Of a DNA stretch of 64,000 bases, positions 6,023-26,208 are shown one piece after another. The translations under genes and the position numbers were made by a program. The DNA comes from Streptomyces physcomitrii (lineage in GTDB: Bacteria > Actinomycetota > Actinomycetes > Streptomycetales > Streptomycetaceae), in the NCBI RefSeq assembly GCF_012273655.1, contig NZ_JAAWWP010000001.1, positions 682,001-746,000 of the forward strand. Reading direction: 5' to 3'. Every line of letters starts with the position of its first letter. Position 1 is the stretch's first letter. The notes beneath the pieces are model-generated. The model searched no databases and was not told the origin of the DNA. It worked only from the letters and a program-made list of their open reading frames with translations.

Positions 6023-6057
6023 CAGCGGGCCGTCAGAAAAAACCTGACGGCCCGCTG
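6023..6057. terminator. Bidirectional terminator between convergent cargo and integrase genes
   Basis: CAGCGGGCCGTCAG / CTGACGGCCCGCTG is a perfect 14-bp stem around the 7-nt A-rich loop AAAAAAC. It lies between the stop of the plus-strand cargo pair (6013) and the stop of int (6062). Confidence 0.85.
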
Positions 6058-6061
6058 TCAT

Positions 6062-9760: not shown

Positions 9761-9804
9761 GCTGGGGATCTCCTGTTCTGTCTTCGGATGGGCAGGGAGA
9801 ACCG

Positions 9805-9837
9805 CGGCGGCGGGCGACCTTGCTGGGGAGTCCCGCC
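9805..9837 (-). repeat. 33-bp leader repeat with hairpin, copy A (upstream of prim-pol)
   Basis: On the minus strand it forms a GGCGGG/CCCGCC-type stem with a conserved loop containing CCCCAGCAAGG. It is identical over 33 bp to 17400-17432, and the flanking GATGGG-CAGGGAGA is also shared. Both copies lie 40-80 bp upstream of a minus-strand start codon (9760 and 17363). It could be a cis RNA regulator or attenuator, or a protein-binding site. Confidence 0.6.
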
Positions 9838-9849
9838 GCCGCGGCGTTG

Positions 9850-10239: not shown

Positions 10240-11021
10240 GCTGCGTCTCCTTCGGGGGTGTCGCCACCGAGTGGCGGTTGGTGCCACGGCGGCAGACTGT
10301 TCAGGGTGCGAGTGCGCCAGTTGAGGGCGTAGGGCTGGCAGTTGGCGCAGTTCTTGTGCGGGTGGCCGGGCAGGGGCGGTTTGCGGCGTGCGTCGTAGGA
10401 CCAGGCGAGGGAGTCAGCCGATGCGAGGCTGTGTCCGCAGCTGCGCAAGCCGAGGGTCTTGAAACCGAAGCCGTGCAGCCGCAGCCCCTGCGCAGCGAGG
10501 GTCGTGACGATCGCGGCGGCTTCCCCGGTGGCCTGGCGACGGCACACGGAGCCGAGTCCGACGACGGGTTCGGCAGCCAGGTCGACACCGGCCCGTTCGT
10601 AGGCGTCGACGCAGGCAAGGTAGTCGTCCAGCTCCCAGCCTTGGAGGACGGGAATGATGGGCAGGTCTGGGGCCGCGCTGCGCAGGTGAAGGAAGTTGTC
10701 GATCGTGCGCCGCTGGTGTTCGCTCACGCTCAGGCCGGTCAGGCCGGTTATCCAGGGCTCACACATCCAGTCCATCGGAGCGGCCCAGGCCATGCGGCCG
10801 ATCTCGTCACGGAAGCGGCGGACCGCGGCGAGATAGGTGCTGGCGGTGGTCCGCCACTTGCCGTGCATGGACAGTTCGGTGAACCCGCCCGAGTCCAGGG
10901 CCCACGGCGCTATGGCTCGCGGCAGCGTGCGGCGGGTCGCGAGACGGCGGTAGGAGACGAACAGCGGCACATTCGCGGTGCCCAGCCAATGCGGTTGATG
11001 AGTACCGAGGAAGAACCTCAC
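10236..11021 (-). CDS. DpdA/tRNA-guanine transglycosylase-like protein
   Basis: 261 residues from GTG 11021, which overlaps the upstream stop (GTGA). TGT-type landmarks visible are ALDSGGFTEL (41-50; DSGGF is the TGT base-binding motif with its catalytic Asp), APMDWMCE (81-88), VLQGW (125-129), VVGLGSVCRR (153-162), LHGFGFK (182-188) and a C-terminal CANC (225-228) that may bind zinc. The protein is shorter than tRNA-modifying TGTs (~370 aa) and closer to DpdA-like proteins, known or proposed to insert 7-deazaguanines into DNA. No preQ0-synthesis genes or dpdB/C partners are visible here, so it would rely on host precursor or act differently. Confidence 0.65.
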   Translation of the reverse strand: MRFFLGTHQPHWLGTANVPLFVSYRRLATRRTLPRAIAPWALDSGGFTELSMHGKWRTTASTYLAAVRRFRDEIGRMAWAAPMDWMCEPWITGLTGLSVSEHQRRTIDNFLHLRSAAPDLPIIPVLQGWELDDYLACVDAYERAGVDLAAEPVVGLGSVCRRQATGEAAAIVTTLAAQGLRLHGFGFKTLGLRSCGHSLASADSLAWSYDARRKPPLPGHPHKNCANCQPYALNWRTRTLNSLPPWHQPPLGGDTPEGDAA

Positions 11022-11626
11022 CGGGCCTGCCTTTCCTCGACGGCGGGCAGCTGTGGGAGCCCCGCCCGGTTGAGCGCCTGCGGGTCGAAGCCGGGCAGCG
11101 CAGCGCGGGTGACAAGGGCCTGTGCGAGCTGTTCGGCGTAGGCGGCACCGGTGCGGGCCACCTCGATCTGTGTGGTGGCACGGAGGGTTTCGACGCGTTC
11201 GATGTGGGCGCGTTCCTCGCGGCGATCGGTCACGTGCCGCTCGTACGCCACGCGCTCCCGCCGGTCGGTGCGCCAGTACCGGGCGGCGAGCCCGTAGGCA
11301 ACAGCGGTCGTGAGCGCCCACAGCAGCAGCGGCAGGGACAGCCCGTCGGCGTATCCGGCGACCCCGGCCAGGGCGAGCCCGCCGGAGGCGGCGAACGCAG
11401 TCCCGGCGAGCACGCCGTCACCGGAGCGACCGAGGGAGGCGCAGGCGCCGGCCGCAGCGGCTCCGAGGGACAGCACGGTCATGAGCACGGCGTTGCCGAG
11501 GGAGTGTTCGGCGCCGTTGACGTTCCAGATACGGGCCAAGATGAGCACGGTGGACGTGGCGACGGCGGGCGCCGCCTTGGGCGCGATGATGCCGAGCCAG
11601 TGCCGGGCGATGATCTGTTCGTTCAT
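11018..11626 (-). CDS. AICE membrane protein with coiled C-terminus
   Basis: 202 residues from ATG 11626, with GAGGAG 7 bp upstream; longer in-frame starts run through the two neighbouring genes. The N-terminal 115 residues hold about four hydrophobic helices (VATSTVLILARIWN; NAVLMTVLSLGAAAAGACASL; GTAFAASGGLALAGVAGYADG; LPLLLWALTTAVAYGLAA). A long charged helix follows (YWRTDRRERVAYERHVTDRR...) with a cytoplasmic tail. The position among spd-like genes suggests a role in plasmid spread between hyphal compartments. No catalytic motif seen. Confidence 0.6.
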   Translation of the reverse strand: MNEQIIARHWLGIIAPKAAPAVATSTVLILARIWNVNGAEHSLGNAVLMTVLSLGAAAAGACASLGRSGDGVLAGTAFAASGGLALAGVAGYADGLSLPLLLWALTTAVAYGLAARYWRTDRRERVAYERHVTDRREERAHIERVETLRATTQIEVARTGAAYAEQLAQALVTRAALPGFDPQALNRAGLPQLPAVEERQAR

Positions 11627-11637
11627 GGCCGGACTCC

Positions 11638-11826
11638 TCAGAGACTCTGGATGGCGTCGATGACGGCGGCGGTGAGTTCGTTGATGGGGCCGGATGCGCC
11701 GGTGGAGGCGAGGAAGAAGCCGAAGGCGGCGGCGGTGAACGCGGAGCCGTAGCCGAGGGACTTGGAGCGCAGCAGGAAGAACAGAACGAGTCCGAACAGA
11801 GCCACGAGCGAGACGGTGACAGCCAC
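11638..11826 (-). CDS. Small SpdC/SpdD-like hydrophobic protein
   Basis: 62 residues from GTG 11826, supported by AGGAGG 6 bp upstream. It contains two membrane helices (VTVSLVALFGLVLFFLL and YGSAFTAAAFGFFLASTG) and a short C-terminal helix (INELTAAVIDAIQSL). Very small hydrophobic proteins of this kind (spd genes) accompany traB in Streptomyces plasmids and influence pock size. The assignment rests on size, topology and context. Confidence 0.6.
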   Translation of the reverse strand: MAVTVSLVALFGLVLFFLLRSKSLGYGSAFTAAAFGFFLASTGASGPINELTAAVIDAIQSL

Positions 11827-11861
11827 GGGCGGAACCTCCTTCGAGTGGTGCGTACGGGTGG

Positions 11862-12113
11862 TCAGTTGGTGCCTTCGCGGTAGATCCGCTGGGCACGGTT
11901 GAAGAGCCACCGCCCGGCGCGTATGCGCTTGCCGGTGGCCTTGCAGCGGCGGCAGCTCTTGCCGCGCTTGGGGCGTCCCTTGCGGTCAGTGGTGGTGGCG
12001 AAGCCGAAGCCGTTGCACGTGCGGCAGGTGCCGAACGGGCTGGCCGCACACAGAGCGCTGTAACCGAGCGTGACGAGCATCAGGCAGGCGACAGCAAGGG
12101 CGATGAGGGTCAT
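11862..12113 (-). CDS. Membrane-anchored DnaJ-type zinc-finger protein
   Basis: 83 residues. An N-terminal membrane helix (LIALAVACLMLVTLGYSALCA) is followed by CRTCNGFGF and CRRCKATGK, two CxxCxGxG-type zinc-binding repeats as in the DnaJ cysteine-rich domain. The C-terminus is basic (RAGRWLFNRAQRIYR). It starts the group of small membrane genes downstream of traB and the candidate clt repeats. Role in transfer is inferred. Confidence 0.65.
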   Translation of the reverse strand: MTLIALAVACLMLVTLGYSALCAASPFGTCRTCNGFGFATTTDRKGRPKRGKSCRRCKATGKRIRAGRWLFNRAQRIYREGTN

Positions 12114-12154
12114 CGGGGGCCCTTTCTCGGGGTTTCCGGGGTTTTCGCAGGTGG

Positions 12155-12241
12155 GGTGCTATCCGCTAGATGGCAGATCAGGTGCTATGCGGGGTGCTAG
12201 CGGGGGTGCTACCGGTAGCAGGTGAGCCCGCTACCGGTAGC
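12155..12241. repeat. GGTGCTA iterons and GCTACCGGTAGC palindromes: candidate clt (transfer locus)
   Basis: GGTGCTA occurs at 12155, 12181, 12193 and 12205 (the last three exactly 12 bp apart). The palindrome GCTACCGGTAGC occurs at 12208-12219 and 12230-12241. The cluster lies immediately 3' of traB (stop at 12254). In pSVH1 and pIJ101 the clt site, made of short direct repeats read by the TraB winged helix, lies at or near the 3' end of the tra gene. An origin of replication is the alternative. Confidence 0.6.
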
Positions 12242-12253
12242 TGTCCGGCGGGG

Positions 12254-14509
12254 CTAGGCGGCACCCCGGTTTTCGTCACGCTCCGCAATTGCCTTCGTGA
12301 CGTCATCGCGGACGATGCCGCGGCGCGTGGTGCGCTCGCCGTCGTCGGTCGTCCCAGCCACGCCGGTGGTCTTGATGCCATGCGGCTTGAGCGCGCTGGT
12401 GACGTTCTCGCCCTTCCAGCCGCCGTAGACCTCCGGCCGCAGCTCCGTGAGCCGGGCGGCGATCCGCTCGTTCCATACGCGCTTCTCCGACGGCGGCACG
12501 ACCGCGGCCACGTCGGCAAGCAGGTCGTACGACGGTCCCGACGTGCTGTCCGTGTCTTCCCCGAGGGCATGCCCGGACAGGGTGCCTTCGGCCTTGCGCA
12601 GGGCGAGCGCGCGCTGAGCGATGGCGTTGGTGGCCGGGTCGTCCAGGTAGGCGGTGCGCACCACCACCGGGAGCGCGGTGGCGCCGGCGAGGTAGCCGTT
12701 ACCGGCGTCGATCTCCGGACGGAACGACGTGGCGCGCACGCCGTTCTTGTACGCGCTCGTACCGAGGATCATGTCGTTCTCGACCTGTCCGGCGACCTTG
12801 AGAGCAAAGCGGATGGAGACGTTGCCGCTGATGCCCGTCGGAAGCGAGTCCTTGTCGGGCCGCTGCGTGGCCAGCACGAGGATTACACCCAGGGCACGAC
12901 CGAGCTTGATGATGAACTCCGCATCGTCACCAGCCTGTTTGCCGTACTTGGGGTGGGCGAACAGGTTCTGGCACTCGTCGAACACACCGACCAGCGGCCA
13001 CAGCTTCAGCGAGCGCTTGTCAGCGATGGCGCGGGTGACGCGCTTGTCCGGGCACAGATCCCGCGGCAGCTTCTTGATAGCCGCGGCACGGCGCATGACT
13101 TCCTCGCGCAGCAACTTCAGGGAGTCGGCCGCGTACCGGATCGAGTCGTCGTCGATGCCGGAGACGAACCGGTGGCTGACGCATTCGAGGGAGTCCAGGT
13201 CGCCGGTTCCCTTGTTCTCGTGCAGCCACAGTTCCACGCTCGGGTCAAGCGCGGCGCCGCAGGCCAGCACGCGCACGGAGGCGGTCTTGCCCTGGCCGGG
13301 CAGCGAGCCGACCAGGATGTTGTGCTGGATCATCGGTACGGACTGGGCACGGCCGCGCGGGTCGATGCCGAACGGGACGCGCTTGAAAATGTCGTGCTTG
13401 CGGACGTTGGCGAGCGCCCACTTCACGGTGCCGGTCTTGGACAGGTCCCGGTCACCGACCCACAGGATGAGCCGTCCCTCGTGCTCGTTGGGGTCGGCGT
13501 CCGGCCACACGCAGCCCAGCGGGCGGCGCAGGCCGGAGGCGAGCCGGGCACGCCGGTCGGCCACGTCTGCGACGGTCACGCCCAACGGCAGGTCGATGTC
13601 AGCGCGCCAGCCCGGCCCCTCACGGGTGATGGGGGCGACGAACCGGATGCCGTCCTGTCCCTTGGCGACCGCCGATGCAATCTGCCCGATGCCGATGGAC
13701 GCCATGGCCTTGACCACGATGTCGCTGGTGAGCTTCTGCACCTCGGTCTTGATGACCGCGCGGGTAGCCAGCGGCGCATCCGCCGGCGCCCTCAGCCAGC
13801 CCAGCGTCAGCACGGTGACCGCAGCGGCGATGACCTGTGTCATCAGCTCCGCCCCGAACACCAGGAACAGGCCCACGACCAGGGCGAACAGTCCGCCAAG
13901 GAACGTGAGGAGCATCCGCAGGCGTACCCGGCGGTCCCGCTGCCGAGACAGCTTCAGGTACAGCTCGGAGTTCTCGCGGCGCGCCTCTGCCTGCCGCAGC
14001 GGCTCGCCCTCCGCGTCGACCGCCCAACGGCCGACCCTGCCCAAGGCGTTGACCAGGCCGCTCGGGGAGCGCCAGATGAGCTTGGGCACGTACAGGAACG
14101 GCACGCGGACCGCGTGGAAGGCGATGGTGTGCCAGACGTGCCCGGCCAGCCAGCCCATCGCGTCCTTGAACTCCGCGCCCGACTTCATCCACACCGGGAT
14201 GATGTCCAGCCGCTTGGAGTCGCGGATGCGGTCGATCAGACCGGGGCCCGACCGAGTCGGCGCCGGACGGTCGACCAGAGCCGGGCCGGAGTCGTCCGAC
14301 TCCCCCGTCTCCGAGTCGGCCGACTCGGTCGGCTTCGGGTCGCCCGACCGGTCGGGCGCGGAGTCGGGCGACGCGTCGGGGGTGCCGTCGGCCGACTCAG
14401 TACGGGCCGACCGCGCCTTGTCCAGGTCGACCACGTCGCCCTTGGAGTCGGCGCCCATCTCGGCTTCGAGCCTGTTGAACAGTTCGTTGTCGTCGTCGGG
14501 GTGTTTCAC
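12254..14509 (-). CDS. traB: TraB-type FtsK/SpoIIIE DNA translocase for conjugal transfer
   Basis: 751 residues from GTG 14509 with GAAGGA upstream. Order: acidic N-terminus rich in ES/DS (about 30-80); amphipathic region; two membrane helices (about 199-238); motor domain with Walker A GSLPGQGKT (401-409), Walker B LVGVFDECQ (506-514) and LATQRPD (546-552); then a C-terminal ~110-residue DNA-recognition region. It should pump double-stranded plasmid DNA between mycelia as a hexamer. A strong hairpin (14534-14579) sits in its leader and candidate recognition repeats lie just past its 3' end. Confidence 0.93.
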   Translation of the reverse strand: MKHPDDDNELFNRLEAEMGADSKGDVVDLDKARSARTESADGTPDASPDSAPDRSGDPKPTESADSETGESDDSGPALVDRPAPTRSGPGLIDRIRDSKRLDIIPVWMKSGAEFKDAMGWLAGHVWHTIAFHAVRVPFLYVPKLIWRSPSGLVNALGRVGRWAVDAEGEPLRQAEARRENSELYLKLSRQRDRRVRLRMLLTFLGGLFALVVGLFLVFGAELMTQVIAAAVTVLTLGWLRAPADAPLATRAVIKTEVQKLTSDIVVKAMASIGIGQIASAVAKGQDGIRFVAPITREGPGWRADIDLPLGVTVADVADRRARLASGLRRPLGCVWPDADPNEHEGRLILWVGDRDLSKTGTVKWALANVRKHDIFKRVPFGIDPRGRAQSVPMIQHNILVGSLPGQGKTASVRVLACGAALDPSVELWLHENKGTGDLDSLECVSHRFVSGIDDDSIRYAADSLKLLREEVMRRAAAIKKLPRDLCPDKRVTRAIADKRSLKLWPLVGVFDECQNLFAHPKYGKQAGDDAEFIIKLGRALGVILVLATQRPDKDSLPTGISGNVSIRFALKVAGQVENDMILGTSAYKNGVRATSFRPEIDAGNGYLAGATALPVVVRTAYLDDPATNAIAQRALALRKAEGTLSGHALGEDTDSTSGPSYDLLADVAAVVPPSEKRVWNERIAARLTELRPEVYGGWKGENVTSALKPHGIKTTGVAGTTDDGERTTRRGIVRDDVTKAIAERDENRGAA

Positions 14510-14533
14510 TTGGGTTCCTTCTCTCGGGAGGGA

Positions 14534-14579
14534 TACGGGGCCCGGCCGCTGCTTTGGTCGGTTGAGACCGGGCCCCGTA
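14534..14579 (-). terminator. Strong hairpin between the zinc-binding gene and traB
   Basis: TACGGGGCCCGG (14534-14545) pairs perfectly with CCGGGCCCCGTA (14568-14579). It lies after the stop of the 14590 gene and 25 bp before traB. It may attenuate read-through into traB or end the upstream operon segment. Confidence 0.7.
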
Positions 14580-14589
14580 CGAACGTGGG

Positions 14590-14973
14590 TTAGGCGGCGC
14601 GCTGGTCTTCGGGGTAGGCGCAGGGGACGCACACCCCAAGCGAGGTCGGGATGCAGTAGCTGTAGGTCAACCGGCACTGCGGGCAGGTGCGGCGGGCGAG
14701 CATCGCCAGAGCGAGCGCGCCCCACTTGCGCGAGGTCATCGGCCGGACCGGCTTCGCACAGTCGATGCGGTAGAGGTAGGCGACCTGAACGCCGGACTTG
14801 CGGCCCCCGTGGCGGCGCATCACCTGCGCGGCGACCGGCTGCCCGCCCGGCCGAAGCCCCTTCTCACGCAGCTGGCGGCGGGTGGCATAGCCGTCCGGGG
14901 CGAACCGCCACGGGAACGTGGGGATGCCGAACCGGGTCCCGTCCGGGTCGAAGCACTTGGCGTACGTCGACAT
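14590..14973 (-). CDS. RRQRL-motif zinc-binding AICE protein
   Basis: 127 residues. YATRRQLREKGLRPGGQ (about 29-45) is the RRQ(R)L-type motif that names a family conserved in Streptomyces AICEs. CPQC and CVPC near the C-terminus (about 97-118) form a likely zinc knuckle. Its ATG shares one base with the stop of the upstream GGDEF gene (TGATG). Biochemical role is unknown; it always travels with transfer genes as far as I recall. Confidence 0.65.
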   Translation of the reverse strand: MSTYAKCFDPDGTRFGIPTFPWRFAPDGYATRRQLREKGLRPGGQPVAAQVMRRHGGRKSGVQVAYLYRIDCAKPVRPMTSRKWGALALAMLARRTCPQCRLTYSYCIPTSLGVCVPCAYPEDQRAA

Positions 14974-15623
14974 CAGGCAGCCACCCCTACGACCGGAGCG
15001 TCCGAGCGGGCGCCGGTACGGCCTGCGCGCCGTCCGGTGACGGTGGCGAACAGCCGACCCAGCCCCGCACGGCGGGTACCGGCGCGAGCCTGCTTGGCCG
15101 CGTACATCGCCTCATCCGCACGACGCAGCAGCGCGGACAGGTCGTCATCGGGGAAGTCGGCGGCACGCACCCAGCCGAGAGCGACCGTGGTGTGTACGTC
15201 GGGGTCCTGGCCGTCGACCGGGCGAGCGAGCACGCCGTGCAGCACGGCGAGCATGTCTCCAGCGGTGCCGTGGTCGTCGATCAGGACGGCAGCGAACTCA
15301 TCGCCCCCGAGCCGCCCGGCCACCCCGGACCGGCCGACGTGGTGGGCGAGCCGGTCCGCTGTCGCCTTCAACAGCCCGTCCCCGGCCGCGTGCCCGAAGG
15401 TGTCGTTGATCTGCTTGAACTTGTCGACGTCGGCGAGCACCACCACCGCGCGCGGGTCCCTCAACAGGGCGGTGGCGCGGCGAGTGAATCCCTCGCGCGT
15501 CCGGAGCCCGGTCAGCGGGTCACGACGGGCGACGTTCAGGCGCCGCCGCAGCCACAACGTGTGGGCCGTCCAGCCGGAGGCGACCGGAGCCGCCGCGGCC
15601 AGCATGGTCATCAGGGTGTTCAT
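14973..15623 (-). CDS. GGDEF-domain protein (putative diguanylate cyclase)
   Basis: 216 residues. An N-terminal hydrophobic helix (about 5-25) probably anchors it. A full GGDEF domain follows: RDPLTGLRTREGF (34-46), VVLADVDKFKQINDTFGH (61-78), RLGGDEF (104-110). The inhibitory I-site RxxD five residues upstream is absent (RSGV), so feedback inhibition is not expected. A C-terminal basic tail follows. It would make c-di-GMP, which in Streptomyces controls BldD and the onset of sporulation, so the element may influence host development. Its ATG at 15623 overlaps the DUF2637 stop (ATGA). Confidence 0.85.
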   Translation of the reverse strand: MNTLMTMLAAAAPVASGWTAHTLWLRRRLNVARRDPLTGLRTREGFTRRATALLRDPRAVVVLADVDKFKQINDTFGHAAGDGLLKATADRLAHHVGRSGVAGRLGGDEFAAVLIDDHGTAGDMLAVLHGVLARPVDGQDPDVHTTVALGWVRAADFPDDDLSALLRRADEAMYAAKQARAGTRRAGLGRLFATVTGRRAGRTGARSDAPVVGVAA

Positions 15624-16621
15624 GCCGCCGCCCCCTCGGTGCCCTCGTCGGTGCCTTCGTCGTCGCCGTCGACGGAGTGCAGGCGGCGCCCCTCGGCCCG
15701 CTCGTTCAGCAGCAGGTCACGCAGGACACGGGAGTTCGCGGCAGAGCAGTGCAGTGTGGTGCGGATTGCTTCCGCGTTGATCGCGTCGTCCGTCCAGTCC
15801 GCCGTAGCATCGCGTGCCTCGGTGAGCAGTTCGGCCGGGGTCCGCGGCGCCTTCGTTGCCTTGCCCTTGGTGCTGGCCGGGCGCTTGCGCGGCGGCTTCG
15901 GCGCCTCCGGCTTCGACTTCGGCGTCTCCGTCGGCGGCACAGGCGGAACGTCCTCGCCCGCCGGGGCAAGCTCACCCAGCTTCAGTAGCACGCGTTCCGG
16001 GCGCGGAGTCTTCGACCGCCACCGCCGACCGTGCTCCTCACGCAGCCGGGCACGGGCCAACTGCCGCTCACGCTCTCGCTTCAGCGCCTCGGAGTAGGAC
16101 GTGATCTCCCACAGCGTCATCCGCCGCCACAGACCGAACGTCGACAGCGGGGCCAGCATCCACCGGGAGAACCGCACCTTCTCCATCCGCCGGCCGGTCG
16201 CAGCGCCGATCCGCACGGCGTAGATGTGCGCACCGATCTCGGAGAACACCACCCACAGCAAGGGCATCGTGCCGTGTGCCACCTTGGCCCACAGCGACTC
16301 CCCAGCGGCGACGTTCAGCCCGCACGTGATCAGCGTCAGCGCCCAGGGCACGAACCGCACCCACGCAAGCGCCATGTCCATCCGGATCAACAGCAGGTTG
16401 GCCACGGTGAACACCGGAATGGCCACGTCGATACCGACCGGCAACATCCACGGCTCACCGAACCCCCACCGCGCCGCAGCAGAGGAGACCGCGTCGAACG
16501 AGGCAATCAGGCCCAGGGCCCCGACCCCCGCCGCGGCGAGCGCGCCAAGTCCGGCAAGCCCCATCTCCGGGCGCGTCAGCGGCGGCACCGCCGGACGCTC
16601 GATGCTCTGCGTCGTCGTCAT
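15620..16621 (-). CDS. DUF2637 membrane protein (SpdB-like)
   Basis: 333 residues. The N-terminal half has four to five membrane helices (LAGLGALAAAGVGALGLIASF; WMLPVGIDVAIPVFTVANLLLI; FVPWALTLITCGLNVAAG; TMPLLWVVFSEIGAHIYAV), matching the DUF2637 family of Streptomyces plasmids. A charged helix (ALKRERERQLARARLREEHG), a Pro/Lys-rich linker and a C-terminal domain that may be a small winged helix follow. Likely a spread or channel protein working with TraB. It overlaps both neighbours by 4 nt. Confidence 0.8.
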   Translation of the reverse strand: MTTTQSIERPAVPPLTRPEMGLAGLGALAAAGVGALGLIASFDAVSSAAARWGFGEPWMLPVGIDVAIPVFTVANLLLIRMDMALAWVRFVPWALTLITCGLNVAAGESLWAKVAHGTMPLLWVVFSEIGAHIYAVRIGAATGRRMEKVRFSRWMLAPLSTFGLWRRMTLWEITSYSEALKRERERQLARARLREEHGRRWRSKTPRPERVLLKLGELAPAGEDVPPVPPTETPKSKPEAPKPPRKRPASTKGKATKAPRTPAELLTEARDATADWTDDAINAEAIRTTLHCSAANSRVLRDLLLNERAEGRRLHSVDGDDEGTDEGTEGAAA

Positions 16622-17067
16622 GCCGCACCTCCGGCCACGATCAGGGCCGCGAGGATGAGCAGCGCGCCACCTGCGCAGATGAGGTCAACCGCACGGCGCA
16701 GGCCCTTGAACTTGGCCATCGCGAGGCGGGAAAGACCCGCGATGTCCGCGCTGAGACGGTCCTCACGCAGCTGAGTGGTGATCTCCTCAGCCGTGAGCGT
16801 CGCCCACAACGGGAAGCCGTGCCGACCGCGCAGGTTCGGGCGCACCGACCGCAGCAGCAGACCCGCCGCAGCGACCAACAGCGCCATGCCCGCGCCACCC
16901 ACCACACAGGAAGCGGTGTTCAGCGGCATGTCCTTGGCGACCGTCCAAGCCCCGGCCACCACCGCGCCGACGAACGCCAGCAACAGAGCGGTCTTGTTGT
17001 CGGTCCGCGCGATCTCGGCCTTCACCTCAGCGTGCGCGGTCGTCAGCTTCGTCTCCAGGGCGCTCAT
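16618..17067 (-). CDS. DUF5706/PycTM-like membrane protein
   Basis: 149 residues. An N-terminal amphipathic helix ends in EIARTDNKTALLLAFVGAVVAGAW, the E-x-R-x-D-x-K helix running into the first membrane segment that marks DUF5706 proteins. Two more segments follow (ASCVVGGAGMALLVAAAGLLL; AVDLICAGGALLILAALIVA). The family includes the Pycsar effector PycTM, which disrupts membranes on sensing cyclic pyrimidine nucleotides, but Streptomyces plasmid members are usually annotated as transfer proteins. No Pycsar cyclase is seen nearby, so a transfer or entry-exclusion function is at least as likely. Confidence 0.7.
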   Translation of the reverse strand: MSALETKLTTAHAEVKAEIARTDNKTALLLAFVGAVVAGAWTVAKDMPLNTASCVVGGAGMALLVAAAGLLLRSVRPNLRGRHGFPLWATLTAEEITTQLREDRLSADIAGLSRLAMAKFKGLRRAVDLICAGGALLILAALIVAGGAA

Positions 17068-17363
17068 GCCGCAGCCCCCTTCCGGGAGAGCCGACGGAAC
17101 CCCGCTGGACGCGCCAGGGGGACGACGTTGAACAGCTCCGGTGCGTGCGCCTCGATCACCTCAGCGGCGATGCGGGCCACGTCGTCCGGCAGGTTGCGGT
17201 ACTCGGGGTCGGCCAAGATGTCGCGCGCCGCGTCCATCCGAGCCGCGCGCTCCATCTCGCTCTCACCCTCCACCCCGAGCCACAGCTCAACCGGGGTACC
17301 GAGGGCCAGTTCCGCGAAGTCCTCAGCGGATACGGCCTGTTGACTGCCGATGTACGTACGCAT
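17064..17363 (-). CDS. First gene of the AICE operon, small protein of unknown function
   Basis: 99 residues from ATG 17363, supported by AGGAG 7 bp upstream. Soluble, mixed alpha/beta, with SAEDFAELALGTPVELWLG and a helix ARMDAARDILADPEYRNLPDDVARIAAEVIEAHAPELF, then a short basic end. No motif recognised. It heads the minus-strand operon and is followed by DUF5706 with an ATGA overlap. Its leader carries the second copy of the 33-bp hairpin. Confidence 0.6.
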   Translation of the reverse strand: MRTYIGSQQAVSAEDFAELALGTPVELWLGVEGESEMERAARMDAARDILADPEYRNLPDDVARIAAEVIEAHAPELFNVVPLARPAGFRRLSRKGAAA

Positions 17364-17399
17364 GGACGTTCTCCTGAATCGATGGGACAGGGAGAGGTC

Positions 17400-17432
17400 C
17401 GGCGGCGGGCGACCTTGCTGGGGAGTCCCGCC
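17400..17432 (-). repeat. 33-bp leader repeat with hairpin, copy B (head of operon)
   Basis: Identical over 33 bp to 9805-9837. It lies 37-69 bp upstream of the start at 17363. On the transcript it would fold into a GC stem with a conserved loop ahead of the ribosome-binding site. Confidence 0.6.
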
Positions 17433-17435
17433 ACC

Positions 17436-17491
17436 GAACATGTGCGCGGCGGTACACGTCCTCCGAGATAGAGAACATGTATCACGTGTTC
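17436..17491. promoter_or_regulatory. Divergent control region with GAACATGT repeats
   Basis: GAACATGT occurs at 17436-17443 and 17473-17480, the latter inside the imperfect inverted repeat GAACATGTATCACGTGTTC (17473-17491). This lies between the minus-strand transfer operon and the plus-strand XRE/Nudix genes. It is the best candidate operator for the element's repressor (the tandem-wHTH GntR or the XRE protein). The gap up to the XRE start (17682) holds no other gene. Confidence 0.45.
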
Positions 17492-17681
17492 CTCATCGTG
17501 CAGTGAGAGGTTCGCTGCGTCAAGCCCTTCGACTGTTGACGTTCCGCGAGCCCCTCGCGCTCGATGTACCTACAGAGTGGCTGCGATGACAGCGACGCTC
17601 GACTTCGCACCTGTACGACTCGGGTCGTCCTTGGCTAGCGTGAAGTCGTACCAAGTCGTCCCGAGTGAGCGGAGGTTGGAC

Positions 17682-18449
17682 GTGGCGAACGAGCGACTGC
17701 GTGGCGCCATAGTCGACCTGGGCCTGACCCTTGACGAGGTCGCTGAACGGCTCGGTGTCGCGGCCAAGACGGTCGAACGCTGGATCAATGACCCAGACCG
17801 CAAGCCGTATCGGCGCTTCCAGTACGCGACCGCCTCACTTCTGAAGTGCGAAGTCTCGTACCTCTGGCCGGACGAACGAACGTCGGCCGAAGTGACCGCC
17901 ACTGGCAACGCGGAGTTGGTGAGGCTGTATCCGCACCGGTCCGTCGTGATGCAGACCCTTTGGACGAACCTGTACTCCAAAGCGACCCGGCAGTTTGACC
18001 TACTGGTGTACTCGGGGTTCTGGCTCACCGAGGACGCGATGTTTCACCGCATCGTGAAAGAGAAGTCGGCTGACAGAGTCCCCATCCGCTTCATGTTGGG
18101 AGAGCCAGAGTCGCCGGCCGTGGCCGTACGGGGCGACGACGAAGGGATCGGCGCCGCGATGGCGGGCAAGATTCGCAACGCCCTCATCAACTACGGCCCG
18201 CTCTTTGGCCTCCCCGGTGTCGAGTTCCGCTTGCACGGCACCACTCTCTACAACTCGATCTACCGGGCCGATGACGAGTTGCTGGCGAACGGCCACCTCT
18301 ACGGGGTCGGCGCCTACATGGCTCCCGTGCTCCATCTGCAACGCGTGCCCGGCGGTGAACTCTTCGACGCCTACGCTGAGAGCGTTGAAAAGGTGTGGCA
18401 GTCGGCCCGTCCGATCTCGTCACCCGACGATTGGGAAGGCACACACTGA
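17682..18449 (+). CDS. XRE-family regulator with a PLD-like C-terminal region
   Basis: 255 residues from GTG 17682, chosen for GGAGG 7 bp upstream; the longer open frame begins at 17577. The N-terminus is a helix-turn-helix (LGLTLDEVAERLGVAAKTVERWINDPDR, about 11-40). The C-terminal ~170 residues (VYSGFWLTED; VPIRFMLGEP; LPGVEFRLHGTTLYNSIYRADDELLANGHLYG) resemble a degenerate phospholipase-D/nuclease fold used as a sensor or dimer domain. Its stop overlaps the Nudix start (TGATG), so the two are co-made. Divergent to the transfer operon, it likely regulates it. Confidence 0.75.
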   Translation: MANERLRGAIVDLGLTLDEVAERLGVAAKTVERWINDPDRKPYRRFQYATASLLKCEVSYLWPDERTSAEVTATGNAELVRLYPHRSVVMQTLWTNLYSKATRQFDLLVYSGFWLTEDAMFHRIVKEKSADRVPIRFMLGEPESPAVAVRGDDEGIGAAMAGKIRNALINYGPLFGLPGVEFRLHGTTLYNSIYRADDELLANGHLYGVGAYMAPVLHLQRVPGGELFDAYAESVEKVWQSARPISSPDDWEGTH

Positions 18450-18922
18450 TGAGCCGCATTGACTACTTCCGCGACCCGAACGCGCCTAAGGCAAATTCGG
18501 TGGTCCCCTCGGTGACGGCAGTTGTCCGCGACAATGCGGGGAAACTGTTGCTCATCCACAAGACCGACAATGGTCTTTGGGCTCTGCCCGGTGGTGGCCA
18601 CGATATTGGCGAGCGCATCGCGGACACGGTTGTTCGTGAGGTCCGGGAAGAGACCGGTATCGACGTCGAAGTAGACAACGTCGTCGGGCTCTACACGGAC
18701 CCCGAGCACGTTTTGGCGTACGACGACGGCGAAGTCCGTCAACAGTTCTCTATCTGCTTCCGGGCCCACTCGGTCGGCGGTTCCCTGCGCACAAGTAGTG
18801 AATCGAAAGAGGTCCGCTGGGTTGACCCAGCGGACCTTGACGGGCTGGATATCCACCCTTCGATGATGCTGCGCATCCGGCACGGTCTCGATGACGCGCG
18901 GCGGGAACCCTACATCGGCTGA
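18449..18922 (+). CDS. Nudix hydrolase (Pif-like)
   Basis: 157 residues from ATG 18449, which shares a base with the preceding stop. A complete Nudix box GX5EX7REVREETGI is present (about residues 47-70: GHDIGERIADTVVREVREETGI). The context, an AICE control block beside a GntR-type repressor, matches pSAM2, whose Nudix protein Pif confers immunity against redundant transfer. Pif-like exclusion is therefore the leading idea. The 3' ends of this gene and the opposing HD-domain gene overlap by 13 bp. Confidence 0.85.
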   Translation: MSRIDYFRDPNAPKANSVVPSVTAVVRDNAGKLLLIHKTDNGLWALPGGGHDIGERIADTVVREVREETGIDVEVDNVVGLYTDPEHVLAYDDGEVRQQFSICFRAHSVGGSLRTSSESKEVRWVDPADLDGLDIHPSMMLRIRHGLDDARREPYIG

Positions 18923-19479
18923 CCACCGACCGAAACATCCGCCATCCGCTCCCCGACACGCTTCGATGCTGCGTGGATCTCGGGGGCCGCGCGTTGGATG
19001 AACCGCCCGACGATGGTGTCCGGGCCGTACCTTTGCACGATCTCATCCAGTCGTGCGGCCGGCGTTGTCTGCGTCCCGTCCGGCGTCGTCGTCATGTCGC
19101 AGTAGAGCAAGGCGTCGACCAGGTCGGGGCGCTCTAGCTCGAACTCGCTCTCAAGTTCCCGACGGAGCCCGCGTTCCTCCGCTTCGAGCAAGGCACAGGA
19201 GTGATGCGCCACAAGACGAACAACCCGTTCGTCCGCGCCTTCCTGATCTCTGAGGAACCGCGCGCCGTCCAAGGGGTGGAAGCCCGTAGCAGCAATGGCT
19301 GGCGAGTAGCCGATGTCATGCAGCACGGCAGCGGCCTCCAACAGCTGCGCGTCGTCCCCCAGGATGGGGCTCAGGGAGCGAGCACACTTGGCGACCCCGA
19401 GTGAGTGCGCCCACCGGCGCGGGAGCGGCTCGGAAAGCAGCGATTCAGAGAGCGTGTATGCCCACTCAGTCAGTCCCAT
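18910..19479 (-). CDS. HD-domain phosphohydrolase
   Basis: 189 residues from ATG 19479. HD signature: H25 (RRWAHSLGVA), H54-D55 (AAVLHDIGYSP), H68 (GFHPLDGARFL) and VRLVAHHSC (about 86-94), with a downstream Asp in LLYCDMTTTPDG. Such proteins hydrolyse nucleotides or cyclic nucleotides. Placed between the Nudix gene and the GntR regulator, it may act on a nucleotide signal of the element, possibly one linked to the GGDEF protein; this link is speculative. An upstream start at 19524 would add 15 uncharacteristic residues. Confidence 0.8.
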   Translation of the reverse strand: MGLTEWAYTLSESLLSEPLPRRWAHSLGVAKCARSLSPILGDDAQLLEAAAVLHDIGYSPAIAATGFHPLDGARFLRDQEGADERVVRLVAHHSCALLEAEERGLRRELESEFELERPDLVDALLYCDMTTTPDGTQTTPAARLDEIVQRYGPDTIVGRFIQRAAPEIHAASKRVGERMADVSVGGQPM

Positions 19480-19490
19480 GGCGGCTAAGC

Positions 19491-19937
19491 CTACGACCGG
19501 GCGACGTGAGTCGGGAGTGCACACACGGTTCGTCCCTTGCCGTGCACGGTGGCAAGCACCCCGTTCCCCTCCATCTGGGCAAGAACCCGACGCACGGCAG
19601 TCCGGGACGCTCCGAACCGCTCACACAGCTTCGCTTCGGACGGGTACGCGTCACCGATCGAGAGGGAGTCCTCTTGGATCACGTCCGTCATGCGTTCCGC
19701 GAGCGACCGGCGGTCGCCTCCCCGGACCACGCGCCATCCGATACCGGGAGCGGACTCGACAACCCCATCACCTTCGAGAACCTTGAGCGCGCGACGGATC
19801 GTGTTCCGGGAGACTCGGTGCGTGTCCATCAGCTCTGCTTCCGACGGCAGCGCCTCCCTGTCCCCTTCGGCCTGAATCTCGTTTCGCAGCGTCTCCGCAA
19901 TGACCAGGTAGGTTCCGCGCGGACTGGCCTCCGGCAC
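19491..19937 (-). CDS. Tandem winged-helix GntR-type repressor (KorSA-like)
   Basis: 148 residues from GTG 19937, chosen for AGAGGAG 5 bp upstream; ATG starts at 19961 and 19952 lie before that site. The protein consists of two consecutive GntR winged helices and no effector domain: LPSEAELMDTHRVSRNTIRRALKVLEGDGVV (about 30-60) and YPSEAKLCERFGASRTAVRRVLAQMEGNGVL (about 98-128). pSAM2 KorSA is a GntR-family repressor of pra. TTGACA at 19968-19973 (minus strand) may be its -35. The likely target is the 17.4-17.5 kb region or its own promoter. Confidence 0.82.
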   Translation of the reverse strand: MPEASPRGTYLVIAETLRNEIQAEGDREALPSEAELMDTHRVSRNTIRRALKVLEGDGVVESAPGIGWRVVRGGDRRSLAERMTDVIQEDSLSIGDAYPSEAKLCERFGASRTAVRRVLAQMEGNGVLATVHGKGRTVCALPTHVARS

Positions 19938-20109
19938 TTCGGCTCCTCTCATTCCACTCATGGCCCGCTGTCAAGAGTGCCACTGGGCCATGAAGTGCGT
20001 CTTCGGACAGGAGTGTCCCACGTGTCCGGCTGTCCGGTTAGGGCTCTCACCTGCGTAAATGGACCGGACAGCTCGAAGCGCCGCTGTCCGAGCTGTCTGG
20101 TCACAGCCC

Positions 20110-20136
20110 GGCTGTAACACCCGGGGTGTTACAGCC
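20110..20136. promoter_or_regulatory. Perfect 27-nt palindrome upstream of the GntR-type gene
   Basis: GGCTGTAACACCC-G-GGGTGTTACAGCC: 13-bp arms around one central base. It sits in the 320-bp gap between the GntR start and the NTPase stop. With almost no loop it is a poor terminator and a good operator candidate, though a cruciform or bidirectional terminator is possible. Nothing else gene-like was seen in 19938-20258. G+C drops sharply to the right of about 20230. Confidence 0.55.
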
Positions 20137-20258
20137 GTCGGCGGAGCCGACCTCCCGGTGGGCGTAGGAGCCGGAGGCGACTTCCGATCTAATCTGCCAC
20201 GCCAGAAGGCAAGGAGCCGCAAAGCCTCCGCCGCGTCGACAGCAACACCAGATACGTT

Positions 20259-22661
20259 CTATTCTTCAAAGAGAAGAAGCTGGCCACCAGATCCATTTTT
20301 GCGATCACTCAGGTACATGCGCCATATTTCCGCGCTTTCGAGTCGACCTTCACTCGCGAACGCTTCCCCGACCACCCTCAAATCGGCGATTGGGCATTCA
20401 TCGAGCGCCTCCTTGAAGGCGCCGCCCAACTCATCTTCAATCAGGCTTTCTAGCGCGTCTAGAGATATGATCTGCGACGAATCCGGGAGGCCCGTAACCG
20501 AGCTATGGAAAGCTTTCACAGACTCAATCATTGCGCGTACAAGCCGAAGCAGGTCAACCCCCAGCACTGCACATTGGCAGGCGATACACATCCTGACAGA
20601 CAAGCAGGCTTGCGCAAAATTCAGGAGCCTGTCCGGAGACTCAAGATAGCGCTTCTTAATACGTCCAGCGTCTTTGCCCTGCTTAAAGGAATAGGCTAGC
20701 CCAGGGTGACTCGAAACTGAGGCTACCGAGACGCAGCTCATGAATTGTGGATCATCAAGAGAGATTCGATCTTGCAGCTCATGCCAGATGATGTCCGGCA
20801 CATCGCTCACTTCCGAGAAAAATTTACGTTCTGTGGGATCTTGCTCCCCACCTGCCGACTGCTGCTGGGCATAGTCAACGAGATAGTCGAACACGCGGTA
20901 CCTGTCTTCTTCACCGTACGGCTCAAGACATGAACTAGCTCCTTCAACTTCTTCCGTCGCCCACACGAAAGCCGCATCTACATCCTCGGCTCTAACTCGA
21001 CGGCGAAGACGAGGGTCCACATAATGTCCGTAGGTCGCCCTAAGCCAATCACCTGGAACAGGGGCCAAATATCCGGCACGCCGAAAATCAACTGCTGCGG
21101 ATACCAGAGCGGCGCCTACTTCGTTACCGCCGTGTTTCCCGCTTAGCCAACGCTCCACTGCCGATGGGCCAGCCGCAATGTACTCGGCAAAACCAGCCTC
21201 ACCAGCCCGGTCGAGAGCATCAGCAATTCGGGGATCTTCGCGCAAGAGTGCTGCCCGCATGCGCTCGCTTCTATCAAGATTCCTTTCCACTCGGAGCACG
21301 GTTGCAATAGCCAGCGTCTTTCGGGCGGTCGGGTCAGACCTAGCGGAAGTGTAAAGTGCGGCCTTAGCCTGAGAACGCATCGTAGCCAATACAGCCGCAC
21401 TACGGTGTGCACAAAGAGAACGAACTAGCCCCGCATCCACCCCTCCTTTCCCCATGAACTGTTCCAGATCATCAAGCCAAACAATACTGTTACTGAAATC
21501 ATGCCCCGAGGTCAGGAGATCACGAAGAGCTTGGCCACTACTAGGCACTACGACAGCTTTCCATCCAAGCACTTCCGCATTTCGCCTGAGTCCTTCATAA
21601 CCAGTTCGCGACTTGCCGGCCGCAGAATTACCCTCAATTACAACGAATCCTCCCCGAGAGAGAGCTTCGTCGAGTTCAGTGTCCACACTTCGCGACACAT
21701 AACGGGGCAGATCCTTCCAATCAGTTCGCCGAGTGGGAAGGTGAACTCCCAAATCAGCAATCGGATCGTAAGCGCCTGGGGGGCGAATTTCAATCGTTCC
21801 CGACCCAACTACTAACGGTGCTGCATCAGCTTGCTTCCTAGCATATTCCTCCGAGATCAACTCACGGACCTCATCAGCGGCAATGTAGCGTGCATTAAAT
21901 TTGCGCAGATCTTCGGCTTGTACGCACGCCTTCACCGTGGCACCAAGGTGGCGCGGCGTCGCAGTTCTTGATTCTGGAAGTTCAATACCTGCCCTAGCCA
22001 CTCTGGCCAAGACTGCCAGGTAGCACGCTTCGGCGTACCAAGGCTTTCGCCCGGACCCGACAAGGTATGCCTCCATCTTCCTCACGCCTACATCGGTGAT
22101 CTCGTTACGTCGAGGCAATGGATGCTGCGGGATGTGCAGATCGGCGATAAAGTCTTGAGCATCGACCTTATCAATCTTGAGAGACTTACTCAGCCGGGTA
22201 GAAGCCTGCTCTTTGGCAGTTTCACTTCCTCGGCACGCTTCCCAGAGAATCTTTGAAGGGCCACTGAGTCCTGCATTGCTTACGAAAGCGACCGATGCCC
22301 GCCGATCAGCATGCTCCCAAGCCGAATATAGATCGGCTAGCACCGAGTCCTTGGCCAGTGAACTCCAAGTCCATCCTGCATCAGAGGCATGGTGAGGCTC
22401 TCTATGCTTGATAGAGATCAGTTCAGGCTTGTCGTGCTTAGGTATTAGCACGACGTCCGTTGAATGCTCAACGAGGACACCCTCCAGGTCGCCCCGCAGG
22501 TGATCCAGGATGAGACTAACGATGCATTCATCCTGGTACTCAAAGCGGGCCCGGGTTGCAGGGGCTGAATTCCTCTTGTCTTCAGGTAACGCCGAGGTGA
22601 GCCTGGTGTAAGTCGTGCCCAGGGAAGCCCCGGCTGCCTCTTCGCTTCTCCCGCTTACCAT
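20259..22661 (-). CDS. Nuclease-like/STAND-like NTPase, candidate anti-phage protein
   Basis: About 800 residues from ATG 22661; an open extension to 22775 would run through the attR arm repeat, so the shorter form is preferred although its ribosome-binding site is weak. The N-terminus (RFEYQDECIVSLIL, 39-52; HSTDVVLI, 66-73; ELISIKHRE, 80-88) resembles the Cap4/DUF4297 restriction-nuclease fold, with Asp69 and Lys85 where the PD-(D/E)xK residues belong but Ser in place of the middle acid or Gln. A P-loop NTPase follows: Walker A GNSAAGKS (344-351), Walker B SIVWLDDLE (392-400). The C-terminal ~300 residues are helical. This nuclease-NTPase-sensor layout is that of Avs/STAND defence proteins. 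G+C is well below that of the conjugation genes. Function is inferred. Confidence 0.65.
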   Translation of the reverse strand: MVSGRSEEAAGASLGTTYTRLTSALPEDKRNSAPATRARFEYQDECIVSLILDHLRGDLEGVLVEHSTDVVLIPKHDKPELISIKHREPHHASDAGWTWSSLAKDSVLADLYSAWEHADRRASVAFVSNAGLSGPSKILWEACRGSETAKEQASTRLSKSLKIDKVDAQDFIADLHIPQHPLPRRNEITDVGVRKMEAYLVGSGRKPWYAEACYLAVLARVARAGIELPESRTATPRHLGATVKACVQAEDLRKFNARYIAADEVRELISEEYARKQADAAPLVVGSGTIEIRPPGAYDPIADLGVHLPTRRTDWKDLPRYVSRSVDTELDEALSRGGFVVIEGNSAAGKSRTGYEGLRRNAEVLGWKAVVVPSSGQALRDLLTSGHDFSNSIVWLDDLEQFMGKGGVDAGLVRSLCAHRSAAVLATMRSQAKAALYTSARSDPTARKTLAIATVLRVERNLDRSERMRAALLREDPRIADALDRAGEAGFAEYIAAGPSAVERWLSGKHGGNEVGAALVSAAVDFRRAGYLAPVPGDWLRATYGHYVDPRLRRRVRAEDVDAAFVWATEEVEGASSCLEPYGEEDRYRVFDYLVDYAQQQSAGGEQDPTERKFFSEVSDVPDIIWHELQDRISLDDPQFMSCVSVASVSSHPGLAYSFKQGKDAGRIKKRYLESPDRLLNFAQACLSVRMCIACQCAVLGVDLLRLVRAMIESVKAFHSSVTGLPDSSQIISLDALESLIEDELGGAFKEALDECPIADLRVVGEAFASEGRLESAEIWRMYLSDRKNGSGGQLLLFEE

Positions 22662-22756
22662 ATGGACGATGGTAGGCGAACTGCCCCTCGCTGGCATGCA
22701 ACATGCAAACGGCCACGCACCCGTCGGCTCCGCAACGTGTCGCCAATCGCTGGCTG

Positions 22757-22776
22757 CGCGACACACCTCCGACACA
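22757..22776 (+). repeat. Candidate integrase arm-type site, right end of AICE
   Basis: CGCGACACACCTCCGACACA, 19/20 identical to 4311-4330 and in the same orientation, 75 bp inside the attR core. Confidence 0.5.
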
Positions 22777-22851
22777 ACAAGTCCTACGGCGGCGCTCTGG
22801 TCGCGCTCCCCCGCTGGTCAGAGGCTCTATCAGGCTTGAACGGCACAATCT

Positions 22852-22894
22852 CTCCGGAGCCGTGTGCGCAGGTTCGAATCCTGCCGGGGGCACT
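22852..22894. repeat. Central att core: attR of the AICE and attL of the relic element
   Basis: 43 bp identical to 4161-4203. Only the tRNA 3' part is present (anticodon loop, T arm, acceptor), preceded by unrelated sequence, so it cannot make a tRNA. Confidence 0.92.
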
Positions 22895-22945
22895 TCGCAG
22901 GAACAGCGTGATCAACCCGCTGAACTGCTGAAGTGCCAGACATCA

Positions 22946-22978
22946 AGAGTCGGATCCAGTCTCGCTGGGTCCGACTCT
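22946..22978 (+). terminator. attL-side hairpin of the relic element
   Basis: AGAGTCGGATCCAG / CTGGGTCCGACTCT around loop TCTCG, then TTTGTCGTTG. Homologous in position and loop to 4257-4289, with compensating stem changes. Confidence 0.6.
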
Positions 22979-23000
22979 TTGTCGTTGCTGCGCACCGATC

Positions 23001-23023
23001 GCGATAGACCTGCGATAGAGATC
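23001..23023 (+). repeat. Candidate arm-type sites, left end of relic element
   Basis: Two tandem copies, GCGATAGACCT then GCGATAGAGATC. The second motif recurs at 26084-26095 next to the right core. The sequence differs from the arm repeats of the intact AICE. Confidence 0.5.
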
Positions 23024-23176: not shown

Positions 23177-24754
23177 ATGAACTTTGGGCTGGACGCGAAG
23201 AAGGCCGCCGAGATTTGCCGGACTGAAATGTACGGGGATTGGTACCGGGATCCGTGGGCGTGGCCGGAGCTGAACTGGATAACCAGCCGACCCGACGATT
23301 TCCCTTGGGCTGAGATTGTCCAAAGAGACGGATCTTTCAGAACGCGCAGGGACCCATGGTTCGAGCCGATCATTGTGCCCAAGAGTCGCCTTGGCGTACG
23401 CCCCGCCGTCGTAATGTCACTCGACTGCAAAATTGCCTACGCCGCAGCGGTGCATCTAGTGGCAGGAAAGTTGCATGCTGATCTGCCGAACTGGGTTCAC
23501 GGCTGGAGACTTCGCAACGGTCCAGACCTGGTGAATAACGGCAACGAATGGAAAGACTATATGTCTTTCTTCGAAAACCGTGAACAGAGCTCAGCGTTTG
23601 CCCTGGGAACCGACATCACATCATTCTTCGCCTCCATCAGCGTAGATAGGATGGCGAGCATCGTCTACGACGACGCGGGAAAGAATGCCGGATCCCAGCT
23701 CATAGAGCATATCCTCCACAAGCATGACCAAATGTCGTCACGGAGCGGACTCCCTCAGCGCAGTTGGCCATCCGCAATCCTCGCCAACCGCTACATGACG
23801 CCGCTGGATGACTCGATCTCAAAGAGGCTCGGACGAGGGGTTCTGACTGGCGCAGTCAGATGGATGGATGACATATACGTCACCGGCGAAGAAGAGCAAC
23901 TCTACCGATTCTTCTTGGACTTCCAAGGGCGAGTACGGGAGCTAGGCCTGGAGGCGAATGCCTCCAAGAGTAACCTCGCTCCTATCAAGGATATACAGCA
24001 AGACGTCTTGCTTGATGCCCTCAAAGAGCTTCCCGTTCCCATGAAGCGTCGACTTATCCTGAACGGATTCGGTTCCGACGTTAAGGCAACTCCAGTTGAA
24101 GAAGTTGACCTCACCGAACTAAAAAGTATCGAGTCGGCCGCCCTTATTAACCCCCACCTGCTACCGAGCACTTCGATCAATCGAGTGCTTGTAACCTTGC
24201 GAAAGCATAATCACTATGCCAGCTTTGAAGAATGGCTGCTGGCAGCTGTCCGGCTATCGCATGTCGCTGACAGGCTCGGGAGATATTTCCGGGACGCAAT
24301 AAAGGAAGATCGAGACCTTCTGGACAAGTACTGCGCTTGGCTGAGCAGTTTCCATGAAGCTCCATGGTCAGCGATTCCCTGGGCCTCTGCACAATTCGCA
24401 CTGGCTGTCCCCGGAGTAAAGAACCGGGAGTTCATTCACCTCATGCAGGACTGGCTCGAAAACAGCACTGACATCCATCAAATTTCCGTCGCAGCCCAGC
24501 GATTGTCACGCCTCGACCCGTCGGCGTGCAAGGACATCATCCGCACTCGAACAGACTCCGAGGCTCGCCCGATATTTCAACGCATCTACGGCCTCGCGCT
24601 TCTATCTGCCCGAGATGACAAGCAGCTCGTCCGGCGCCTCCTCGGAGAGGATGCCCGCAACGTGTTGTCAGCTCAGTACCTCGAAGCAACCAAATATGCG
24701 ATACCGAAAGTTGCTGAAGACTACGACTGGGTCTCCTCCGCGCCCGATCTCTAG
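23177..24754 (+). CDS. Standalone reverse transcriptase, Abi/UG (DRT-like) type
   Basis: 525 residues from ATG 23177, with GGCGGAG just upstream. RT landmarks: VPKSRLGVRPAVVMSLD (67-83), first catalytic Asp in ALGTDITSFFASIS (D146), SGLPQRSWPSAILANRYMTPLD (190-211), the catalytic pair VRWMDDIYV (D231-D232), and LGLEANASKSNL (256-267). Residues 270-525 have no maturase, endonuclease or integrase domain and look helical, as in Abi and UG/DRT defence RTs. Oddities: Trp where YxDD has Tyr, and Arg where GLPQG has Gly. It lies alone between attL of the relic and a terminator, at low G+C. Anti-phage function is inferred from family architecture and context. Confidence 0.82.
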   Translation: MNFGLDAKKAAEICRTEMYGDWYRDPWAWPELNWITSRPDDFPWAEIVQRDGSFRTRRDPWFEPIIVPKSRLGVRPAVVMSLDCKIAYAAAVHLVAGKLHADLPNWVHGWRLRNGPDLVNNGNEWKDYMSFFENREQSSAFALGTDITSFFASISVDRMASIVYDDAGKNAGSQLIEHILHKHDQMSSRSGLPQRSWPSAILANRYMTPLDDSISKRLGRGVLTGAVRWMDDIYVTGEEEQLYRFFLDFQGRVRELGLEANASKSNLAPIKDIQQDVLLDALKELPVPMKRRLILNGFGSDVKATPVEEVDLTELKSIESAALINPHLLPSTSINRVLVTLRKHNHYASFEEWLLAAVRLSHVADRLGRYFRDAIKEDRDLLDKYCAWLSSFHEAPWSAIPWASAQFALAVPGVKNREFIHLMQDWLENSTDIHQISVAAQRLSRLDPSACKDIIRTRTDSEARPIFQRIYGLALLSARDDKQLVRRLLGEDARNVLSAQYLEATKYAIPKVAEDYDWVSSAPDL

Positions 24755-24810: not shown

Positions 24811-24951
24811 CTACGGCCAATCCAACTCTCGCTCGATCTTCTTGTTCATGACCTCCTCTTGGTCGTAGATACACCCCTCGTAGACGCGGTGGATCACTTC
24901 GGGCGAGTTGCCGACCCGACAGGCGACCTCTGCCGGCTGCACGCGGATAGG
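24811..24951 (-). pseudogene. Integrase C-terminal remnant
   Basis: Reading from about 24951 down to the TAG at 24811 gives ~46 codons including PAEVACRVGNSPEVIHRVYEGC. This aligns with IAEVARRVGNSPEVIHRRYHGC of the intact integrase, including the catalytic Tyr. The frame is closed by TGA at 24952-24954, and no further integrase sequence was recognised upstream. It marks the former int gene of the second element, in the same orientation and order as in the intact AICE. Confidence 0.85.
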
Positions 24952-26165: not shown

Positions 26166-26208
26166 CTCCGGAGCTGTGTGTGCAGGTTCGAATCCTGCCG
26201 GGGGCACT
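26166..26208. repeat. Third att core (attR of the relic element)
   Basis: Matches the 43-bp core with two C-to-T changes (positions 10 and 16 of the repeat). It probably carries the 3' end of the original, pre-integration tRNA-Arg gene or of an older insertion. Confidence 0.88.

Follow-up and report, generated by a model that had tools for sequence, protein, structure and literature searches.

The window analysed here, a stretch of 64,000 nucleotides from Streptomyces physcomitrii (contig NZ_JAAWWP010000001.1, positions 682,001 to 746,000), encodes a reverse transcriptase (RT) of the UG33 group. The gene lies between two attachment (att) repeats derived from a tRNA-Arg gene and next to an actinomycete integrative and conjugative element (AICE); all features are listed in Table 1. 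The host is a soil-type actinobacterium. The open reading frame (ORF) encodes 525 amino acids without an internal stop and remains open upstream to position 22703, and the methionine of an MxFGLD motif is the start that the RT shares with its closest relatives among the matches listed. The Pfam domain RVT_1 covers residues 68-268 (40.2 bits, cut-off 29.6). Besides this domain, Pfam gave just one match, to DUF6626 and under cut-off, and revealed neither a maturase or integrase domain nor a fused nitrilase or phosphohydrolase domain, the hallmark of class 3 UG enzymes. The G+C content of the RT gene is below that of the locus in 14 out of 14 loci (0.553 versus 0.687 in the window).

Table 1. Features of the tRNA-Arg array and the RT interval, with positions counted from the first nucleotide of the window.
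Feature	Position	Strand	Remarks
tRNA-Arg(CCG), intact	4130..4202	+	probable att site of the array: 3′ end (4161-4202)
AICE-like element	4203..22851		integrase, Prim-Pol, AAA, FtsK-like, DUF2637, GntR, NUDIX, HD
AICE integrase	6062..7627	-	PF00589
Cap4-type nuclease gene, weak nSTAND3 match	20259..22775	-	right end of AICE, divergent from RT; start codon provisional
att repeat, left border of RT interval	22852..22893	+	42/42 identical to tRNA 3′ end
Element left end with terminator-like hairpin	22894..23023	+	also in elements without RT
UG33-group reverse transcriptase, 525 aa	23177..24754	+	RT core ~residues 60-285; helical C-terminal domain ~313-504
Integrase gene 3′ remnant	24811..24933	-	convergent with RT; aligned part 24832-24933
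att repeat, right border of RT interval	26166..26207	+	40/42 identical to tRNA 3′ end

By sequence profile the RT belongs to the UG33 group. A PADLOC search matched 60 families, of which the best 25 are listed; RT_UG33 (PDLC03772) matched residues 2-518 with 594.8 bits, and the next profiles among the matches listed scored far lower (UG9_large 84.4, UG23 83.0 and UG32 79.9 bits). The sequence-only reading could not place the enzyme in a named UG class, which is resolved by this search: the RT is an additional member of an existing profile group and not a new group. Matches to NCBIfam were all far under cut-off (score/cut-off in bits: TIGR04416 48.2/300, Drt5 44/550, Drt3a 42.5/200, retron St85 28.5/235). 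A best match to group II intron RTs, against which the sequence-only reading had cautioned, was not seen, given the TIGR04416 score and the missing maturase domain, and no intron RNA family reached the Rfam gathering threshold in the whole window. For retrons, the comparison comprised the St85 profile and the 25 best PADLOC families. A literature search for UG33 together with reverse transcriptase turned up no characterised member, nor does the name occur in the main text of the RT papers checked for it; within the literature searched, a profile is all that is known of UG33.

The UG33 family comprised 116 proteins, query included, at E ≤ 1e-3 (7998 candidates scored). Judged by this conservation, the RT ORF is not a product of chance, because 115 further proteins match it. 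Alignments were made of 50 (A1) and 106 (A2) of the 116 rows, the latter omitting P0013, P0077, P0079, P0094, P0103 and P0112-P0116 as partial or distant. K69, R75, P76, D146, G191, Q194, R195, R228, W229, M230, D231, D232 and K264 are among the positions invariant in the 106-row alignment. A complete RT with altered core motifs, WMDD (D231, D232) and GLPQR, had been described beforehand. Both motifs are present as described, but they are not peculiar to this gene and constitute the norm of the family, since their positions are invariant throughout the alignment. A 389-aa RT on a viral contig (L014, 4965-6134) has the motif RWMDDI, which is thus not limited to UG33; this contig and a second viral candidate (L015) were discarded as UG33, with 22% identity over 113 residues. 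A phage origin of the UG33 RT was rejected as well, phage records being without any match.

Within the genus, UG33 was detected at E ≤ 1e-40 in one of 392 genomes, that of the window itself. Scanning genome contigs with two peptide patterns, and therefore as a lower bound, identified at least 12 UG33 loci, which judging by organism names are presumably all actinobacterial. One distant relative outside the alignment came from a Planctomycetota metagenome-assembled genome, and five Mycobacterium intracellulare plasmids carry a relative with 29% identity. On the M. intracellulare plasmid L017 (7154-9518) the UG33 relative adjoins a recombinase-family gene on the opposite strand. At two loci (L010, 9995-11580; L012, 9929-11510) the UG33 RT is broken into two frames, which might reflect a frameshift, a pseudogene or a sequencing error.

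The structure of the RT was predicted with confidence as an RT core and a helical domain, and the model superposes mostly on Abi/DRT structures over approximately 400-460 residues, with AbiK, DRT4 and DRT6 among them. Two proposals made from the sequence are consistent with these results, namely a helical C-terminus in the place of a maturase or integrase, neither of which Pfam finds, and an Abi/UG layout, to which the nearly full-length RT_UG33 match also points. Class 1 UG/Abi enzymes are recognised by a helical (alphaRep) domain that follows an RT-like one, the arrangement predicted here, and by this reading of the fold UG33 would fall into class 1. Class 1 UG enzymes are described as carrying a helical alphaRep domain, and those studied as synthesising untemplated DNA (PMC13174585).

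The UG33 RT probably acts as a single protein that polymerises DNA without a template and primes itself, in the manner of AbiK, DRT4 and DRT6, and would abort phage infection. This interpretation draws on the profile membership, the retained catalytic residues, the confident model and the superposition on AbiK, DRT4 and DRT6 enzymes; the defence role itself is one that we infer. As in its relatives, the enzyme would form trimers or hexamers via the helical domain, which would take the place of the template, and the product would be protein-linked single-stranded DNA. A phage trigger would allow this product to build up and thereby halt growth, again by analogy with relatives. DRT4 has been described as a single-gene producer of random single-stranded DNA, protected by a phage protein, with DRT6 being related (PMC13213688, PMC13314766). 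AbiK is reported to use Tyr44, part of the loop 21-57, for priming, with Tyr245 stacking on the DNA and Asp247 and Asp248 being catalytic (PMC9508834). By motif, W229 would occupy the place of Tyr245 in UG33, and therefore the stacking of the WMDD tryptophan on the nascent strand may be kept.

Priming would start at a hydroxyl group, for which Y23 appears to be the best candidate. It is the sole tyrosine conserved in more than 90% of the 106-row alignment (Y in 104 rows, F in one, a gap in one) and sits between model helices 7-20 and 30-37. Several observations weigh against this assignment. The loop around Y23 is short, rigid and confidently modelled, and the family also has conserved serines. 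AbiA has a tyrosine at a numerically similar position, Tyr27, which merely contacts the backbone, and is primed from Tyr298/Tyr303; the priming residue of DRT1 is given as Ser402 (PMC13275509).

Between protein priming and the use of a non-coding RNA (ncRNA), protein priming suits the predicted fold better. The sequence-only reading had suggested that the DNA upstream of the gene could hold an ncRNA, and the enzyme could in that case be RNA-templated in the manner of DRT2, DRT9 or DRT10, with an adjacent ncRNA encoded in cis. RNA templating has been described for some UG enzymes (PMC12632851), and the 283 bp between att repeat and start codon offer room and contain one strong, terminator-like hairpin. 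However, this hairpin falls in an element end that is shared more widely. The repeat and adjoining sequence match the left end of the AICE over the first 164 positions (75% over 171 columns), and of 294 other genomes in the genus 35 matched part of the 283 bp, none of them past position 130. None of these 35 genomes has UG33, since they are among the 392 in which only the window's own does. While the whole stretch has a folding z of -1.45 (18 of 200 shuffles equally good), the remaining 161 bp (23016-23176) gave z +1.66, with 191 of 200 shuffles equally good. Comparing the 400 bp on either side of the RT at 14 loci, with family-based RT starts, revealed no similar pair on the gene's strand at E ≤ 0.05, the loci being diverged and the power of this comparison limited. 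On both strands two inverted pairs of 14 and 37 bp (E 0.043) were found, which we take as chance, and loci L003 and L013, whose RT proteins are 57% identical, showed no evident conserved block in their flanks. Rfam gave no match at gathering threshold in the upstream region, and DRT2 and DRT9 align over merely 241-252 residues of the model among the matches listed. Given the shared element end, the poor folding and the dissimilar flanks, the upstream ncRNA is not supported, and an RNA-templated enzyme of this kind is unlikely.

The single-protein polymerase favoured here appears to reside on mobile DNA. Two further copies of the tRNA-Arg(CCG) 3′ end (42 nt) lie downstream of the tRNA gene, with 0 and 2 differences. 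The first interval between repeats (18.7 kb) contains the AICE, with an FtsK-like match under cut-off (21.3 bits, cut-off 24) and a Cap4-type nuclease (34.3 bits, cut-off 26.2), while the second (3.3 kb) contains the RT and an integrase remnant. The remnant lies 56 bp beyond the RT stop and aligns with residues 480-513 of the AICE integrase, with which it shares 23 of 34 residues (E 2e-10 within a stretch of 1476 bp). Because it lies past the RT stop on the other strand, the RT has an att repeat on one side and the convergent remnant on the other. The three other ORFs tested in 24755-26633 had no Pfam match; in the RT interval a 187-aa minus-strand ORF at 25310-25873 without Pfam match has hydrophobic stretches by eye. 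Flanked by att repeats and lacking tra and rep genes as well as any complete integrase, the interval has the sequence features of a cis-mobilizable or decayed AICE remnant, and appears to be a mobile element, now decayed, at a tRNA gene. The RT would have arrived as AICE cargo, the transfer genes being lost thereafter. The interval borders are those given by the repeats in the sequence: among relatives' tRNA-Arg loci there was no clean empty junction, with matches of at most ~110 bp past the third repeat, and several of these loci bear elements of their own.

The same slot between att site and integrase recurs elsewhere. Locus L002 has the order of the window, with a tRNA-Arg(CCG) gene (1244-1316), the RT, an HNH gene and a convergent integrase 50% identical to that of the window (Pfam 24.8 bits, slightly under the cut-off of 27.1). 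L011 has a tRNA-Gly gene, the RT and a convergent integrase-like ORF, which may be decayed because its three integrase-domain matches are partial and under cut-off. The left end is shared by 29 loci in other genomes of the genus, of which 14, including one weak case (L068), have a facing relative of the window's integrase at variable distance within the 1.5 kb examined. The RT lies between perfect 46-nt 3′-end repeats of tRNA-Pro at L013 and of tRNA-Phe at L005, and between tRNA-Pro-like 3′-end repeats at L003. In total, a tRNA gene or 3′-end repeat was found within 2.6 kb of the RT at five of 12 genome loci (binomial tail 4e-4, for a distance picked after seeing the data and an assumed density of 70 tRNA genes per 8 Mb). 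At L007 it was 5.6 kb away, and six of the 12 loci had neither tRNA nor repeat in the DNA examined, which in some cases reaches contig ends.

The UG33 RT might accordingly be cargo that mainly serves its mobile element, e.g. by excluding competitors or stabilising the island, rather than acting against phages. The occupied slots of the window and L002, and that of L011 with its partial integrase, fit such a role, as do the five loci close to a tRNA gene or repeat. We consider it improbable, given the six loci without tRNA or repeat and the defence genes among the UG33 neighbours. These include the Cap4-type nuclease gene of the window and, at the other loci, genes for LmuA (L004, 183 bits, beside a second gene without match), a SAVED protein (L003), an nSTAND1 protein (L007), an HNH protein with type IV restriction profiles (L013), a further HNH protein (L002) and a protein with weak Cap4 and STAND matches under cut-off (L010); the neighbour at L009 had no match in the profile searches. 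The neighbours were picked by eye and give no rate of defence genes, and their nature lends support to a defence setting. An obligate partner gene was rejected as a candidate: when neighbours picked mechanically up to 6 kb away at the window and L002-L013 were all compared with one another (E ≤ 1e-4), only the RT and one integrase pair recurred, and the HNH genes of L002 and L013 did not match each other. Even less probable, in our view, is a silent or inactive remainder of a decaying element. The adjacent integrase is a fragment, AICE cargo is described as frequently pseudogenised (PMC9513070) and UG33 is present in one of the 392 genus genomes, but the RT is open over its full length and retains the family-invariant residues.

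Three further observations concern the array. The att-integrase slot of the AICE itself (4422-6013) is occupied by two genes, one matching DUF6932 (52.3 bits) and one of 361 aa that matches nothing in Pfam, possibly an alternative cargo. In many relatives a sequence like 34813-36463 directly adjoins the regulator-tRNA-Arg block (3576-4202) in reversed orientation; an inversion is therefore likely, with a breakpoint close to 34.8 kb. A Streptomyces plasmid record of 20,952 bp (NZ_CP109278.1, 62-116, hit H6) contains the tRNA-Arg att sequence twice and is maybe a free form of an element.

New in this analysis are the evidence on the UG33 fold, the recognition of the motifs as shared by the family, a candidate primer, the arguments against an ncRNA and the slot between att site and integrase. 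UG33 gains a confident predicted structure, one candidate priming residue and a mobile setting, and its motif changes are now read as invariant. Related enzymes produce non-genomic DNA as immunity, and whether such a product is random or patterned is a question for which UG33 offers a clean single-gene test. A bolder proposal, doubtful but with some chance of being right, sees UG33 as a class of enzymes that each write DNA as a single protein, beginning at Tyr23 in the GDWYRDPWGWPE motif. The invariant arginine of GLPQR would fill the template site and gate nucleotide choice, yielding a patterned, non-random product, and UG33 would spread among actinobacterial AICEs as interchangeable defence cargo of their att-integrase slot. 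The slot is in any case a site in which to seek further actinobacterial defence genes.

Among known polymerases, DRT6 and DRT4 (PDB 9wy8, 9vdo; UG15 9l9s) are the top overall fold matches to the UG33 RT, with ~450 residues aligned and an identity of 7-10%. They are single-gene systems according to a review (PMC13213688), as is proposed for the UG33 RT, and their DNA synthesis and triggering by a phage protein would apply to it by analogy. AbiK, Abi-P2 and AbiA likewise combine an RT-like and a helical domain (396-461 residues aligned). Tyr245 of AbiK resembles W229 as an aromatic residue preceding the catalytic Asp pair, whereas the AbiK loop is far longer than that of Y23; the three enzymes differ from each other in their priming residue, a position for which Y23 is the UG33 candidate. 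Tandem AICEs have already been published (PMC3218068), and stacked elements with repeats, including a remnant without traB, are described at a Streptomyces tRNA-Arg gene (PMC9513070). The window shows the same stacking and tRNA-Arg repeats, but unlike the published remnant, that of the window retains a UG RT.
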